64,000 bases of DNA. Origin: Micromonospora sp. MW-13. Its GTDB lineage: Bacteria; Actinomycetota; Actinomycetes; Mycobacteriales; Micromonosporaceae. The translations under genes and the position numbers were made by a program. A model generated the notes under the pieces. The model did no database searches and had not been told where the DNA came from. It saw only the letters and a list, made by a program, of their open reading frames with translations. The stretch covers positions 1-64,000 of the forward strand of contig NZ_QKKX01000011.1 in assembly GCF_003434305.1 (NCBI RefSeq). The letters run 5' to 3'. Shown piece by piece: positions 23,836-29,275 of this stretch (the first letter of the stretch is position 1; each line of letters begins with the position of its first letter).

Positions 23836-24122
23836 GACCGACCACGCGGTCGCGGTGCCCCAGACGCGCGCCTGGAGTGGCACGTCGTAGGTGACCCCGG
23901 CAACGCCCCGTCGTATCCGCGCAGCACCTCGGCGTTGCGGCGGGCCTACGGGTAGCCGGCCCCGCCGTCGGTACGCCACGATGCCACCGTAGCTGTCCAC
24001 AAGCGCCGGTTTCCGGACCTTCCATCGACAGACGTCATGTGATTGAATGCCGATACCGGCAGAAAGACCATCGGCGGTACGCGCCCACAAGGCGCATGCC
24101 TACGCCTGAGGGGTGCGCGGAT

Positions 24123-25295
24123 ATGACGCTGCCTGAAATTGACATGGACGATCCGCTCGGTCCCCTGTTACGGCAGATGGATCTGCGCGACCCATATTCG
24201 GTCTACGCCCGGCTGCGCGCACGGGAACCGATTTTCTACTACGAGCCGCTGCAATCCTGGATGCTCACCCGCCACGCCGACTGCACCGCCGTCCTACGGG
24301 ACAGCGCCCGGTTCGGCGCCGACTGGCGACGGGTGGGCGAACAGGTTCCGCCACAGGCGGTCAGCGTGCAGACCCTCGATCCGCCGGAGCACACGGCGAT
24401 CCGCCGGCTGCTCATGGAGGCGACCCGGCTGGTCGACACCCCGGCCGCGGCGCGGCTGGTGGCCGGGCGCACCCGGGCCCTGCTCGGCCGGCTCGCCGAG
24501 CGTGATCGCTTCGACTTCGTCGGCGAGGTGGCCGAGCCCCTCGCCGCCGGTACGATCACCGACCTGCTCGGCGTGCCCGAGCTGGACCTCGCCTGGTTCG
24601 TGCCGGTCGCCAACCGGATCGCCGACGGCATGGACGCCGGCCTCTGGCCCGAGCTGGGCCCGCCGGCGATGGGCGCCCGGGCGGAGCTGGCGGCGTACAC
24701 CGGGACCTGGCTGACCGATCCGCCCGACGCCGGGGTGATCGCCCATGTCGCGCGGCACGCCGACGACGCCGGCGTCGACCGCACCGTGGTGGCCAACAGC
24801 CTGCGGGTCCTGCTGCACGCCGGCTTCGAGTCGGCCAGCCGGCTGCTCGGCCTCGCCGTCGCGGTCCTGCTCGCCGAGCCCGGCCGGGCGGAGTCGTTCC
24901 GCCACGCCGAACCGGATGCCGCCGTCGACGAACTCGTCCGGCTCAGCTCACCGGTGCAGGCCACGGCACGCGCCTGCGTGACCGACAGCCGGTTCGGCGA
25001 GGTGCGGATCCGGGCCGGCGAGGCGGTGACCCTGCTGCTGGGCGCCGCCAATCGGGACCCCGAGCGCTTTCCCGACCCGAACGCCTGGCGGCCGGACCGC
25101 AGACCCAACCCGCACCTGGGGTTCGGCCGGGGCGCGCACTCCTGCCTCGGGTCGCCGTTCGCCACACTGCAGGCCCGGATCCTCAGCACCGTCCTCACGA
25201 CGGAGTACCCACATGCCCGGTTGCTCGCCGAGCCGGCGTACCGGCGCAACCTCACCCTGCGTGGCCTCGACCGTCTGGAAATCGCCCTGCGATAG
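24123..25295 (+). CDS. Cytochrome P450 (A), first gene of the pentapeptide locus
   Basis: A 390-residue soluble bacterial P450. The K-helix ExxR is E270-R273, and the heme loop FGRGAHSCLG holds Cys341. The I-helix reads AGFESAS at 233-239, lacking the usual acid-alcohol (E/D-T) pair. Such changes are common in P450s that couple aromatic side chains rather than hydroxylate. Leu16 uses TTA (24168-24170), implying bldA-dependent translation. The ATG at 24123 has GAGGGG ten bases upstream; an ATG at 24096 is an alternative. It ends 45 bases before the MRYWH gene. It is a candidate for the cross-linking enzyme, as in biarylitide clusters where a P450 is the only modifying enzyme. Confidence 0.9.
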   Translation: MTLPEIDMDDPLGPLLRQMDLRDPYSVYARLRAREPIFYYEPLQSWMLTRHADCTAVLRDSARFGADWRRVGEQVPPQAVSVQTLDPPEHTAIRRLLMEATRLVDTPAAARLVAGRTRALLGRLAERDRFDFVGEVAEPLAAGTITDLLGVPELDLAWFVPVANRIADGMDAGLWPELGPPAMGARAELAAYTGTWLTDPPDAGVIAHVARHADDAGVDRTVVANSLRVLLHAGFESASRLLGLAVAVLLAEPGRAESFRHAEPDAAVDELVRLSSPVQATARACVTDSRFGEVRIRAGEAVTLLLGAANRDPERFPDPNAWRPDRRPNPHLGFGRGAHSCLGSPFATLQARILSTVLTTEYPHARLLAEPAYRRNLTLRGLDRLEIALR

Positions 25296-25340
25296 CCGGT
25301 CGCGGTCGCATTCCCGATCGATGACGAAGGGAGGGACGAC

Positions 25341-25358
25341 ATGCGTTACTGGCACTGA
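25341..25358 (+). CDS. 18-base precursor gene for the pentapeptide MRYWH (biarylitide-like RiPP)
   Basis: ATG CGT TAC TGG CAC TGA encodes Met-Arg-Tyr-Trp-His and stops. An excellent ribosome-binding site, AAGGGAGG (25327-25334), lies six bases upstream, matching the best in this window. Biarylitides are made from pentapeptides such as MRYYH and MRYLH encoded by 18-base genes, with a P450 joining Tyr to His; MRYWH fits MRYxH exactly. The gene lies between two P450 genes and is followed by a stem-loop. The predicted core is Tyr-Trp-His after removal of Met-Arg. A competing 15-codon frame from the ATG at 25321 lacks a ribosome-binding site. The match is seen directly; the product is inference. 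Confidence 0.85.
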   Translation: MRYWH

Positions 25359-25385
25359 GTCAAATTGAAGTGAGAGGCAGTGTTC

Positions 25386-25421
25386 GTCGGGCACCCGGAC
25401 GATGTTCCGAAGGTGCCCGAC
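25386..25421 (+). terminator. Stem-loop between precursor and methyltransferase genes
   Basis: GTCGGGCACC (25386-25395) and GGTGCCCGAC (25412-25421) form a perfect 10-base stem, extended inside by CGGA/TCCG. It starts 28 bases after the MRYWH stop and has no T-tract. A leaky terminator or RNA-stabilising hairpin here would let the precursor be made in excess over the enzymes, as often seen in RiPP operons. Confidence 0.6.
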
Positions 25422-25470
25422 GGGCACTGTCCTGGCCGGAAAGAATGTACTCGACCAGGAGGACACGAAC

Positions 25471-26223
25471 ATGCGAGGCCCGGATCCGTACGCGTTCGCA
25501 GCCGGTTACTACGATCTATTCCGGGCGAAGCTCGGCGACGAGGCGCTCCCCTCGGTGTCGTTCTTCACGGAGTTCGCCCCGTCCGACGGATATGCGCTGG
25601 AGATTGGACCCGGCACCGGGCGCGCGACGCTGGCCGTGGCGGCGAAAGTGGCCGGCTTGGTCTGCCTCGAACGGTCCGCGACGATGCGCGCGGTGCTGCT
25701 GGCGAAGCTGGCCGAACGGCCGCACCTGCAGGCGCGGGTCACCGTGCTCGATGTCGCTGTGCCGCCGTTCCGGCTCGACCGTCGGTTCGACTACGCGTAC
25801 TTCGGCGGCGTGCTGGAGCACATCCGGCCGGCCGACCGGCCGCACCTGTTCCGCGCCGTCGCCGACCACCTCGCCGACGGTGGCCTGCTGGCCATGGACA
25901 TGGTGCTCAGGCAACCGGCACCGGACTTCCCGGAGCGGGTCGTCGACGAGGTCACCGTCGGCGAGTGCCGGTACGAGCTCGCCGCCGCCGCCACCGCGCT
26001 CGGCCCGGACGAGTCGCAGCTCACCTACATCTACCGCACGTTCCATGAAGACCGGCTGCTCGCCACGGAGAAGGTCGAGCGCCGACACAACATGCACCGG
26101 CCGGAGCCGGTGCTGGCCGACCTGGCCGCTGCCGGGCTGGCGCCTGCCCCGGGGCTGGTGTTCGCCGGAGTCTCCGCCGAGGACCCCGGTGGGGTCGTCG
26201 TGCGCAAGGAGGCGTCGGCGTGA
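25471..26223 (+). CDS. SAM-dependent methyltransferase of the pentapeptide locus
   Basis: A 250-residue class I methyltransferase. Motif I is ALEIGPGTGRATLAVA (about residues 46-60), the strand-2 acid lies in CLERSATMRA, and YAYFGGVLEHIRPADRPHLFRAVADHLADGGLLAMDMVLR covers motifs II and III. The ATG at 25471 has AGGAGG eight bases upstream. Its stop overlaps the GTG of the dioxygenase gene. In this operon the likely target is the MRYWH-derived peptide (N-terminus, His or Trp nitrogen, or C-terminus), but no substrate can be read from the sequence. Minimal biarylitide clusters lack such a gene. Confidence 0.88.
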   Translation: MRGPDPYAFAAGYYDLFRAKLGDEALPSVSFFTEFAPSDGYALEIGPGTGRATLAVAAKVAGLVCLERSATMRAVLLAKLAERPHLQARVTVLDVAVPPFRLDRRFDYAYFGGVLEHIRPADRPHLFRAVADHLADGGLLAMDMVLRQPAPDFPERVVDEVTVGECRYELAAAATALGPDESQLTYIYRTFHEDRLLATEKVERRHNMHRPEPVLADLAAAGLAPAPGLVFAGVSAEDPGGVVVRKEASA

Positions 26224-27230
26224 ACCGCGTCCGGGCGGCGAAATCGGCTCTCCCCGCCGTGGTGCCGCTGGACCGGCGGTACGACCCGGCACGCCTGGCC
26301 GACGAGGTACACGCGTTGCGGGACCACCGCTGGCGGGCGCAGCGCGCCTACAGCCAGGCCGGACTCGCCGCCCCGGTCGAGATCGACTGGCGAATCCTGC
26401 CGCTGCGCAGCCCGACCGGCGACCCGGGGCGTACCGATCCCGGCGGCGCGGGCCTCGATCCGTACCGGGACACCCCGCTGCTGGCCCGCTCGCCGTACCT
26501 GGCCGAGCTGCTCTCCACCATCCCGGCGCCGCTGCGCGCGGTCCGGCTGATGTCCCTCGGCCCCGGGGCGCAGGTGCACGAACACCGCGACGGCAAGTGC
26601 GGATACCCGTGGGGCGTGCTGCGGCTGCACGTACCGGTGATCACCAATCCCGGCGCGGAGCTGGTCATCGAGTCCACGCCGTACCACTGGGACGTGGGCC
26701 GCCTGTGGTTCGGCGACTTCGACCGGCCGCACTACGTGCGCAACACCGGACCCGAACCGCGCGTCCACCTGGTGATCGACTGCCTGGTGACCCGGTCGCT
26801 GCTGGACCTGTTCCCGGAGGCGTACCTGGACCGGCTGCCCTGGCCGGACGTCCTGCTGGCCACCGACCCGGTGCCGCTGCGGGCCGCCGACCTGGCCGGG
26901 CTGGGCTGCGAGTTCCCGGTGCCCGCCGACTTTTCGCGGTGGTCCGAGGAGGACCCGCTGGACGAGGCCCGGCCCGACGTGCCGGGCCGCATCGAGGTCG
27001 ACCAGGGACGGCCGGTCCTGGTGCTGGCGGGCGATCCGACGTTCGCGCTGGTGCACATCGGCCGGTCGGAGTTCCGGTTGGAAGGCTGGACGGAGGAGCG
27101 GACGCTCGTCGTCGACACCGCCTCGCCCCGCCCCAGCGTCCGGTTCCGGGTCCGGGACGGCCGCCTGCTCACCGAATGGGTTCGACCGGCGACCATCCGC
27201 CACGCCGTCAGCGAAGGAGCGCTCCCGTGA
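26220..27230 (+). CDS. Aspartyl/asparaginyl beta-hydroxylase-like 2-oxoglutarate dioxygenase
   Basis: A 336-residue protein with a cupin-type iron(II)/2-oxoglutarate domain in its first half. The ligands are H122-x-D124 in VHEHRDGKCGYPWG and H171 in DRPHYVRNTG. R181 in PRVHLVID suits 2-oxoglutarate binding. This is the Asp_Arg_Hydrox pattern; family members hydroxylate beta-carbons of Asp, Asn, Arg or His in peptides or carrier-bound amino acids. The C-terminal half (about 215-336) is not recognised, though its end, HIGRSEFRLEGWTEERTLVVD, resembles a small beta domain. GTG at 26220 overlaps the methyltransferase stop. Hydroxylation of the peptide's His or Trp is a reasonable guess. Confidence 0.85.
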   Translation: MNRVRAAKSALPAVVPLDRRYDPARLADEVHALRDHRWRAQRAYSQAGLAAPVEIDWRILPLRSPTGDPGRTDPGGAGLDPYRDTPLLARSPYLAELLSTIPAPLRAVRLMSLGPGAQVHEHRDGKCGYPWGVLRLHVPVITNPGAELVIESTPYHWDVGRLWFGDFDRPHYVRNTGPEPRVHLVIDCLVTRSLLDLFPEAYLDRLPWPDVLLATDPVPLRAADLAGLGCEFPVPADFSRWSEEDPLDEARPDVPGRIEVDQGRPVLVLAGDPTFALVHIGRSEFRLEGWTEERTLVVDTASPRPSVRFRVRDGRLLTEWVRPATIRHAVSEGALP

Positions 27231-28453
27231 CCGTCGCCCCCGCCAGGTTCGACATCCCGAAGGACTTCTCCCAGCAGGAGGATCCGTACGCCCTGCTGGA
27301 GGCGATCCGCGCGAGCGGACGGGTCCAGCAGGTCCGGTTGCGCGGTGCCGTGCCCGTCTGGCTGGTCACCGGGTACGCCGAGGCCGTCGCCGCGCTGAAC
27401 GACCCCCGGTTGAGCAACAGCCTCGAATACGGGGCCTCCGTCCTACCCGGCCCCGCCGAGCAGCGGCGGCGGGCGAACGTACTGGCCTGGAGCATGCTGT
27501 CGGTGGACCCGCCCGACCACACCCGGCTGCGGGGCGTCGTCGCGCGCGGCTTCACCGCCCGGCTGGTGGAGCAGCTCAAACCACAGATCCAGGAGCTCAC
27601 CGACGGGCTGCTCGACGCCGTGGCGCCCACCGGACGGGCCGACCTGGTCAACGACCTCGCCTTCCCGCTGCCCATCGCGGTGATCTGCCGGCTGCTCGGG
27701 GTCCCGTACCAGGACCACCGGCTGTTCCGCGGCTGGAGCGTCGGCCTGGCCATGCCACCCGCCGACCCGGACACGCTGCGCCGGGCGGACGCGGCCCGCG
27801 CCGAGATGACCCGCTACTTCGAGGAGCTGGTGCCCGCCAAGCGGGCCGAGCCGGGCGACGACCTGCTGTCGGCGCTCACCCAGGCGCACGCCGCGGAGCG
27901 GCTGACCGACACCGAGGTCGTCGCCATGGCGATCATGTTGCTGCTCTCCGGTCACGAGACCACGGTTTGCTTCATCGGCTCGGCGATCGTGGCCATGCTG
28001 CGCGACCCCGGTCTCGCCGACGCGGTGCGCCGGGACTCCGCGCTGCTGCCGCCCGCCATCGAGGAACTACTGCGGCTCAACGGTCCGGTGACCCGCGGCG
28101 TGGCCCGGTTCACCAAGGAGGAGGTGGAGTTCGGCGGGGTCCGGATCCCCGCGGGCGAGATGGTCGTGGTGTCGCTGGCCGCCGCCAACCGCGACCCGGC
28201 GCAGTTCCCGCGGCCGGAGGTGGTGGACCTGGCCCGCAACCGGAACCCGCACCTGAGCTTCGGGCACGGCATGCACCACTGCCTGGGCCAGGCGCTGGCC
28301 CGCCAGCAGGCCACCATCGCGCTCGGTACGGTGCTGCGCCGGCTGCCCGATCTCGCGCTGGCCAAGCCGCTGGAGGAGGTGCGGCGCTGGCCTGGCATGC
28401 TCCGGGGCCTGGACGAACTGCCGGTCAGCTTCACGCCCGTCGTCGCGTCCTGA
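27227..28453 (+). CDS. Cytochrome P450 (B), last gene of the pentapeptide locus
   Basis: A 408-residue P450 of the broad CYP107/CYP105-like actinobacterial group. The I-helix has the classic SGHETT (241-246), the K-helix ExxR is E280-R283, and the heme loop is FGHGMHHCLG with Cys352. It therefore looks like a normal oxygen-activating hydroxylase, unlike P450 A. The GTG at 27227 overlaps the dioxygenase stop, so the last three genes are translationally coupled. Two hairpins follow the stop. It may hydroxylate the cross-linked peptide, or itself be the cross-linker; sequence alone does not decide. Confidence 0.92.
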   Translation: MTVAPARFDIPKDFSQQEDPYALLEAIRASGRVQQVRLRGAVPVWLVTGYAEAVAALNDPRLSNSLEYGASVLPGPAEQRRRANVLAWSMLSVDPPDHTRLRGVVARGFTARLVEQLKPQIQELTDGLLDAVAPTGRADLVNDLAFPLPIAVICRLLGVPYQDHRLFRGWSVGLAMPPADPDTLRRADAARAEMTRYFEELVPAKRAEPGDDLLSALTQAHAAERLTDTEVVAMAIMLLLSGHETTVCFIGSAIVAMLRDPGLADAVRRDSALLPPAIEELLRLNGPVTRGVARFTKEEVEFGGVRIPAGEMVVVSLAAANRDPAQFPRPEVVDLARNRNPHLSFGHGMHHCLGQALARQQATIALGTVLRRLPDLALAKPLEEVRRWPGMLRGLDELPVSFTPVVAS

Positions 28454-28501: not shown

Positions 28502-28543
28502 AAGGCAGTCACACAGCGATGTCTGGTGCGGCAGAATGCTGGT

Positions 28544-29275
28544 GTGAGCGCGGAGGAAGACGACGAGTTCGAGGAGGTTGCGAATGTCCTCCGAGGACAG
28601 ACGGCCGGTGACGCGGAACTTCGCCCGGCGCTCGAGGCTCGGCTCGGTCAGCCCGTTGTTGCCCTTACCTGCGGGTCCATGAACTCCGTGGCCGGCCACG
28701 GAGTCCCGGGCGTGGAGGTTCCGACCATAACCGCCTGGGTACGTGGCGCGGCACTCGACCATGAACGCCGCCTGCGGGCGGACGCGGTCTTCGATCAGAT
28801 CGTTGCCGAGTTTGGTCCGTGGCGGTGGCGGCAGTTCACGGCACGGGCGTTGCGGGTGGGGAACCTTCCAGGTTCGCGGGCCCGGCGCATCGCAGCACTT
28901 GGCTGCATCGAGTACACAACTGATCCGATTCTGGGCGGGCTGGGGTGCTTCGATGAGGAGGCCACGACCCGCGTCATGGCGGCGATACCGCAGGAGCGGT
29001 GGGACCAGTCCCGCGATGACTGGGGAGCCAGCGTCTGGACCGTCGCCGTGAACGCGGATCTTCACAGCGTCTCCGTGTTCGTCCACACTGCGGCTCAGGT
29101 CACGCAACTGCGGCAGACACCGCAATGGTACGAGTGGGAACGACAACTCCGCGCCCTCATCGCCGAAGAGGACGAGTTCGGGTCAACCAGGATCATCCCG
29201 GTCAACATCGCTCTCGAGAGCCGGGAAGCCTTCGAGTCCGACTGCCAAGGAAACTGGAGCTACTACTGGTACTGA
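28544..29275 (+). CDS. Hypothetical protein
   Basis: A 243-residue soluble protein of unknown function. It begins with an acidic segment (SAEEDDEFEEVANVLRGQ) and ends in the aromatic tail NWSYYWY. No signal peptide, membrane segment or catalytic motif is evident; the central region contains FGPWRWRQFTARALRVGNLPGSRARRIAALG. I chose the GTG at 28544; a GTG at 28526 would add six residues. Terminator-like hairpins separate it from the P450 B gene, so I do not place it in the peptide operon. The 200 bases after it hold nothing confident. Confidence 0.65.
   Translation: MSAEEDDEFEEVANVLRGQTAGDAELRPALEARLGQPVVALTCGSMNSVAGHGVPGVEVPTITAWVRGAALDHERRLRADAVFDQIVAEFGPWRWRQFTARALRVGNLPGSRARRIAALGCIEYTTDPILGGLGCFDEEATTRVMAAIPQERWDQSRDDWGASVWTVAVNADLHSVSVFVHTAAQVTQLRQTPQWYEWERQLRALIAEEDEFGSTRIIPVNIALESREAFESDCQGNWSYYWY

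Follow-up and report, generated by a model that had tools for sequence, protein, structure and literature searches.

A five-gene biarylitide-type locus of Micromonospora sp. MW-13 with an 18-base MRYWH precursor gene and a predicted set of tailoring enzymes

Can a frame of 18 bases behind a cytochrome P450 gene be a genuine gene, and what would its locus then produce? The question is raised by positions 24123–28453 of the window, i.e. the 64,000-nucleotide stretch of Micromonospora sp. MW-13 that was analysed (assembly GCF_003434305.1, contig NZ_QKKX01000011.1, positions 1 to 64,000). The region is probably a five-gene locus for a ribosomally synthesized and post-translationally modified peptide (RiPP) of the biarylitide type, in which the first P450, P450 A, likely connects residues Tyr3 and His5 of the pentapeptide MRYWH, and a methyltransferase, a hydroxylase and a second P450, P450 B, would decorate the Tyr-Trp-His ring. 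The features are as follows.

24123–25295, + strand: P450 A, predicted cross-linking P450 of the BytO type; 390 residues from the ATG at 24123 (418 if read from the GTG at 24039)
25327–25334, + strand: ribosome-binding site AAGGGAGG, read from the sequence, 6 bases 5' of the precursor ATG
25341–25358, + strand: bytA-type precursor gene, MRYWH and stop, read from the sequence; MKYWH counterpart in 5/5 four-enzyme loci
25370–25436, + strand: long hairpin, core 25376–25431, no T run; 28 predicted pairs, folding energy compared with shuffles
25471–26223, + strand: S-adenosylmethionine (SAM) methyltransferase, predicted to be an amine N-methyltransferase from Pfam, remote sequence relatives and a predicted model
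26220–27230, + strand: Fe(II)/2-oxoglutarate hydroxylase (PF05118) with an extra C-terminal part rich in β-strands, from Pfam, ligand residues and a model
27227–28453, + strand: P450 B, TamI/PikC-like, predicted ordinary monooxygenase from its nearest solved relatives and a GHETT acid-alcohol pair

The precursor frame, ATGCGTTACTGGCACTGA, encodes MRYWH and follows its ribosome-binding site at a spacing of six bases, as a sequence-only reading of the locus had described. That reading had also placed the frame between P450 A and three genes coupled by 4-base overlaps. The arrangement is correct, with gtga overlaps at 26220–26223 and 27227–27230 joining the methyltransferase, hydroxylase and P450 B genes; bytA itself overlaps neither neighbor and lies 45 bases behind P450 A and 112 bases ahead of the methyltransferase. 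All four enzyme genes share the + strand, and Pfam assigns their products to P450, Methyltransf_12/25, Asp_Arg_Hydrox and P450, respectively. The frame has the form expected of a biarylitide gene, an 18-base MxYx(H/Y/W) frame with a ribosome site and a nearby P450.

Frames of this kind are not rare genome-wide, so the frame alone means little. The 7.09 Mb genome contains three 18-base MRYxH frames against one match to a reversed control pattern, and among 354 genomes of the family M-[K/N/R/S/H/Q]-YWH-stop was matched in two genomes and its reversed control in five. These near-equal frequencies are what favors a chance reading of MRYWH, with P450 A acting on another substrate. That explanation was rejected on position and conservation. 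Both true YWH matches among the family genomes fall in the gap between P450 A and the methyltransferase, and by our own arithmetic the chance of one random frame on the correct strand of this 175-base gap is ~1e-5. A search anchored on the hydroxylase yielded 130 loci, the best 80 of which were kept for all counts given here on 80 loci. All four enzyme genes occur together in five of them, and each of the five has MKYWH with a purine-rich ribosome site in the same gap, 52–59 bases past the aligned end of P450 A. The sequence-only reading had made its case depend in part on the frame persisting where the four enzymes are kept, which it does in 5/5 loci. In addition, a pentapeptide frame with aromatic residues at positions 3 and 5 and a ribosome-like site lies on the P450's strand within 2 kb in 44 of 48 distinct P450 A rows, the window included. 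The chance reading is accordingly given next to no credence; conservation and position settle the question, and the MRYWH gene is confirmed as a real one within a functional-looking biarylitide-type locus. The four rows lacking such a frame are L024, L025, L108 and L152; L108 and L152 have opposite-strand MRYVH and MRHYY frames nearby. The frames MRHYY and VRHYY of L152 and L162, with ribosome-like sites, stand near a P450 A relative with the I-helix motif LAGLNT and may have a core of His at position 3 and Tyr at position 5.

The five four-enzyme loci (L048, L049, L050, L051 and L118) belong to Actinomadura rupiterrae, Rugosimonospora africana (L049), A. harenae, A. oligospora and A. hibisca (L118), and share the window's order of P450 A, bytA, methyltransferase, hydroxylase and P450 B. 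Their identities to the window are 53–61% for P450 A, 61–67% for the methyltransferase, 61–66% for the hydroxylase and 59–60% for P450 B. Residue 2 of the precursor is Lys in all five and Arg in the window. The closest proteins are in two Micromonospora species, M. sonneratiae and Micromonospora sp. NPDC003197; across 160 genomes of the genus, hydroxylases other than the window's own reach 47% identity at best, and among the 354 family genomes the sole other one with hydroxylase and P450 B both at 60% or more (G342) is taken to be R. africana again. The five loci occupy three neighborhoods, one of them common to three Actinomadura, all unlike that of the window, so that the four enzymes and the precursor persist or move as a unit. 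A comparison of the flanks of six full loci revealed no gene outside the cluster common to the window and the others except one at 27–39% identity, which we take to be ABC-ATPase-like (ATP-binding cassette); one more upstream gene is common to L049 and L118. As the flanks are unmatched, the major facilitator superfamily (MFS) transporter and TetR genes upstream of P450 A were not counted as parts of the locus. The gene caller used for the flanks missed the hydroxylase in L048, L050, L051 and L118 and P450 B in the window, L049 and L051; the shared set was therefore taken from tblastn. A plasmid search with 4.7 kb of the locus returned one record, 1% covered. Just 3' of the locus lies a frame of 249 residues (28526–29275, + strand) without a Pfam match and with the aromatic C-terminal tail NWSYYWY.

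P450 A groups by sequence with BytO, P450Blt and RufO. Its best solved relatives are 22yx, then RufO (8spp/9duj) and, lower down, P450Blt (8u2m), with expect (E) values from 6e-96 to 2e-76. Its heme motif reads FGRGAHSCLG and its I-helix HAGFES, with His at residue 232. This His aligns with RufO His235 (motif HAGFE), the counterpart of P450Blt His234. PMC12951456 associates a His at this position with Tyr-C/His-N linkage and a Val or Leu with C-C linkage. Among the 48 P450 A rows, the six-residue I-helix motif varies with the core: it begins with His in 25, all with YxH cores in which x is never Asp, and with Gln in 12, all YDH. FSG or LAG occurs in six rows, five with YxY and the sixth being L152, which has no frame by the rule above; the remaining five have VAG (two), NAS (two) and FST (one). 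This grouping, the I-helix His and the pentapeptide-linked rows mark P450 A, by sequence, as a biarylitide-type P450.

The chemistry of P450 A has to be weighed against that of RufO, which nitrates tyrosine. A nitrating P450 A, with the pentapeptide supplying a building block for another pathway, would agree with the better score against RufO (E = 2.5e-92) than against P450Blt (1.7e-76) and with the His found in the I-helix of both. Since RufO also has this His, the residue after the I-helix Glu matters for telling a cross-linker from a nitrating enzyme: P450 A has Ser there, like Ser239 of P450Blt, at the position of RufO Val240, and in an alignment read by eye it has Ala at that of RufO Asp169. 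Three tailoring genes also fit a finished peptide. Finally, the sister enzyme AchB of Actinomadura hibisca links Tyr C6 to His N-tau in vitro in norleucine (Nle)-KYWH (PMC13417212). AchB is presumably the P450 of locus L118. On these active-site residues RufO-like nitration was judged very unlikely. The I-helix His and Ser, the kinship and the AchB result together predict the same bond for the window, in which P450 A would likely connect a carbon of Tyr3 with a nitrogen of His5. Among the seven window genes scanned with Pfam there was no nitric oxide synthase, a scan that did not extend to the remaining genome.

The methyltransferase has as its best solved sequence relatives MtfA (3g2m, 5.5e-10) and CorZ (9sot, 7e-4), and it matches daptide_MTase at 1.1e-16 and 61 bits, against a cut-off of 175. 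Its model (predicted local distance difference test, pLDDT, 83) is nearest to KedS8, then to TylM1, CypM and others. An amine is the predicted target, as the relatives of known target are amine methyltransferases. The methyl group might instead go on a side chain, be it the imidazole of His, the oxygen of Tyr or Trp, which would be compatible with a class I fold common to N-, O- and C-methyltransferases and with the several C-methyltransferases among the structural neighbors of the model; since MtfA, CorZ and the daptide enzyme, the closest in sequence among enzymes with an established target, act on amines, this placement is considered somewhat unlikely, and methylation of the N-terminal amine is preferred. 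A TylF-type methyltransferase gene lies directly 5' of P450 A in two loci (L049:816–1454 and L118:4994–5707); the window and the other three full loci have none.

The hydroxylase belongs to PF05118, a family that binds iron through an HxD...H motif and 2-oxoglutarate through an Arg. It contains His122, Asp124 and His171 as iron ligands, Arg181 for 2-oxoglutarate, and His183. Of 92 rows, duplicates and the window counted, 90 have HDHRH at these five positions and two have HEHRH. The model (pLDDT 93) is nearest to 7v4o, proline hydroxylases and AspH. Among the relatives, P0089 (568 residues) fuses methyltransferase and PF05118 domains, hinting at joint action. In three hydroxylase loci of Streptomyces that lack a biarylitide-type P450 (L054, L055 and L060, ~3.6–9 kb), the gene order is the same: a regulator-like frame, one whose product contains MNRPPGP, a transporter-like frame and then the hydroxylase, the names being our reading without a family scan; a pattern search found no pentapeptide frame in the three.

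P450 B has TamI, PikC and other hydroxylases as nearest solved relatives. Its I-helix carries the acid-alcohol pair GHETT, a mark of ordinary monooxygenases, where P450 A has HAGFES. Relatives at 58% identity or more accompany six of the 48 P450 A rows, exclusively the six loci with YWH precursors, which points to tryptophan or the YWH ring as the target. The same restriction to YWH loci, along with the frequent cross-linking of aromatic residues by RiPP P450s, could be explained by a second cross-linker that ties Trp to the Tyr-His ring and yields a bicyclic tripeptide without hydroxylation; the monooxygenase-type pair and the hydroxylases among the nearest relatives make this unlikely, and P450 B is read as a monooxygenase acting on the YWH unit.

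The 18-base gene is followed by a hairpin that the earlier account of the locus did not include. The window hairpin has 28 predicted pairs and a folding energy of −49.9 kcal/mol (z score −6.7, none of 200 shuffles as low). Across 44 loci, the 70 bases 3' of bytA reach z ≤ −2 in 35 and the 70 bases 5' in six, the downstream value being lower in 40 of 44 pairs; for tandem bytA genes the downstream window was taken from the last copy and the upstream window from the first. A z score of ≤ −2 is found in 22/28 loci with bytA before the P450, 11/12 with bytA just behind it and 2/4 with bytA more than 1 kb away. An ungapped stem score of at least 11 is reached in 37/44 downstream and 3/44 upstream windows, 10/220 shuffles and 5/220 random windows; the random windows are mostly coding, and the upstream control was relied on instead, which in P450-first loci overlaps the P450 end. 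The 44 loci are related and hence not independent. The stem counter misses seven, namely the window (score 8; bulged stem), L049, L053, L063, L064, L099 and L113; the energy test recovers the window, L053, L099 and L113 and misses L049, L063 and L064, although the sequence of L049 shows a stem of 13 pairs closed by a long loop. Six related YLH/YIH loci keep 7 of 20 consensus pairs through two-sided changes in at least one sequence, modest evidence from few sequences. In five loci (L064, L066, L071, L073 and L074) tandem MRYLH genes 59–70 bases apart lie behind the hydroxylase gene, with a strong hairpin after the second copy and not after the first. The myxarylin papers (PMC12951456, PMC8708641) name, among supplementary figures, a predicted structure of the bytA–bytO gap beside a terminator hairpin, and our literature search found no statement that a hairpin behind bytA is general. 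We infer a role in transcript end formation or attenuation.

The following pathway is proposed. The ribosome would make MRYWH, aided by the strong ribosome site and by a hairpin protecting or ending the short message. P450 A would then cross-link Tyr3 and His5, and a host peptidase would take off Met-Arg. The methyltransferase would methylate the freed tyrosine amine, the 2-oxoglutarate hydroxylase would add one hydroxyl at a site common to MxYxH and MxYxY cores, and hence not specific to residue 4, and P450 B would oxidize the tryptophan. The calculated [M+H]+ values are 503.20 for the cross-linked tripeptide, 517.22 with a methyl group added, 533.21 with one oxygen and 549.21 with two. The earlier reading of the region as a biarylitide-type locus with tailoring enzymes is supported by the grouping of P450 A and the 5/5 conservation with MKYWH, the tailoring steps themselves being putative.

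Several points weigh against this pathway. The product, transcript and enzyme activities of this strain are predictions, and a leader peptidase gene is not in the set. Since RufO shares the His typical of C-N linkers, that residue alone does not exclude nitration. The homology of the methyltransferase to enzymes of known target is remote (E = 7e-4 for CorZ), and C-methyltransferases are among its modeled structural neighbors. The hydroxylase family is wider than the biarylitides: in 43 of the best 80 loci the surrounding DNA covered contains no relative of P450 A at 180 bits or more, and the contexts of eight of these 43, which were inspected, are mixed and point to no target. The cluster sav, expressed with its hydroxylase, gave only unmodified cross-linked YVH (PMC13417212). 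The link between P450 B and tryptophan comes from one group of related loci, and three MRYWY loci are without P450 B. Relatives of P450 B at 48–49% occur in three family genomes where the ~1.5 kb covered on each side contains neither a relative of P450 A nor a pentapeptide frame, and for the eight of 48 rows covered with only ~1.5 kb of flank (L002, L019–L025) absence of P450 B is weak evidence.

In the P450 A tree, which has 48 rows, the MRYWY and MKYWH loci together form the sister group of the window (support 100/98 for nine, 99/89 for eight). A three-gene tree of 14 rows (P450 A, methyltransferase and hydroxylase) fixes the window's position less firmly. It supports MKYWH+MRYWY at 84/88; a grouping of the window with MKYWH is not rejected (approximately unbiased test, p-AU 0.158), and one with MRYWY is weakly rejected (0.039). 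As the outside neighbors use MRYLH, MRYIH and MRYRH, parsimony favors MRYWH as the starting point of both Trp-core branches. It may therefore be ancestral to both, although the three genes taken singly give different positions for the window. A joint proposal that we hold at even weight is that the smallest known genes are two-part RNA cassettes, an 18-base frame and a long hairpin mostly starting 7–23 bases past the stop, which stay together in any gene order, the hairpin setting high, separate expression for five codons; that the MRYWH cassette feeds the most elaborated kind of biarylitide locus yet; and that MRYWH is ancestral to MKYWH (Tyr-His) and MRYWY (Tyr-Tyr).

Among known systems, the MKYWH loci, including that of A. 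hibisca AchB (PMC13417212), resemble the window in the gene order of L118, all four enzymes, Trp at position 4 and a Tyr-x-His core. The L118 P450 is 61% identical to P450 A; the differences are Lys for Arg at position 2 and HAGYTS (A. hibisca) for HAGFES in the I-helix. For this motif the cross-linking step was tested, and the word methyltransferase does not occur in the main text (PMC13417212). The MRYWY loci (Stackebrandtia; Actinocatenispora rupis AciB) share the Trp core and, in three loci, methyltransferase and hydroxylase homologues at 50–57%, but have Tyr at position 5, a Tyr-Tyr C-C link and the order P450-methyltransferase-bytA-hydroxylase (PMC13417212), and no P450 B homologue at 45% or more (38% in L068). 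The cloned sav cluster of Saccharothrix variisporea (MRYVH; PMC13417212) likewise has a biarylitide P450 and a predicted aspartyl/asparaginyl β-hydroxylase; it differs in an amidinotransferase and a C-C link, and neither a methyltransferase nor a second P450 is named. Myxarylin (BytO, BytZ/CorZ; PMC12951456, PMC8708641) also combines a pentapeptide, a C-N cross-link and a tailoring methyltransferase, but its precursor is MNYLH, CorZ is remote from the window's enzyme, and no hydroxylase or second P450 is named. Rufomycin RufO (PMC12186263) is of the same P450 family and also acts on the product of an 18-base gene; the two nitration-tied residues checked, the Val after the I-helix Glu and Asp169, are not in P450 A. 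The MW-13 genome holds a second biarylitide locus (G000:C44:106211–107501; L002, L165) with MRYLH and a P450 that shares 42% identity with P450 A; ~40 kb from it is a duplicate MRYLH (G000:C44:146233; L003) that has nearly the same upstream sequence but lacks a P450 match in the following 1.5 kb.

The sequence-only reading named no characterized biarylitide with a Trp core, methyltransferase, hydroxylase and two P450s. Two parts of this have precedents in PMC13417212, the Trp core through AchB on Nle-KYWH and the hydroxylase through the cloned sav cluster; the methyltransferase-hydroxylase-P450 set was not found characterized in the papers searched, whose supplements lay outside the search. 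No report of MRYWH was found either, in a search that did not take in PMC13417212's supplementary tables, where this or similar clusters may be listed. The biarylitide family and Nle-KYWH cross-linking by AchB are already known; the MRYWH precursor variant and the recurring tailoring set appear to be new and to mark a more decorated branch.

No biological role is known for biarylitides, and the bare cross-linked tripeptide isolated in PMC13417212 is suspected by its authors to be an intermediate. The gene set described here offers a small system for testing a route to a complete biarylitide, methylated and twice oxidized. The hairpin raises the question of how so short a message is expressed and provides a second signal for finding 18-base genes that annotation misses. 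Because the I-helix residue, residues 4 and 5 of the precursor and the tailoring set are linked, the products of the family become more predictable from sequence.

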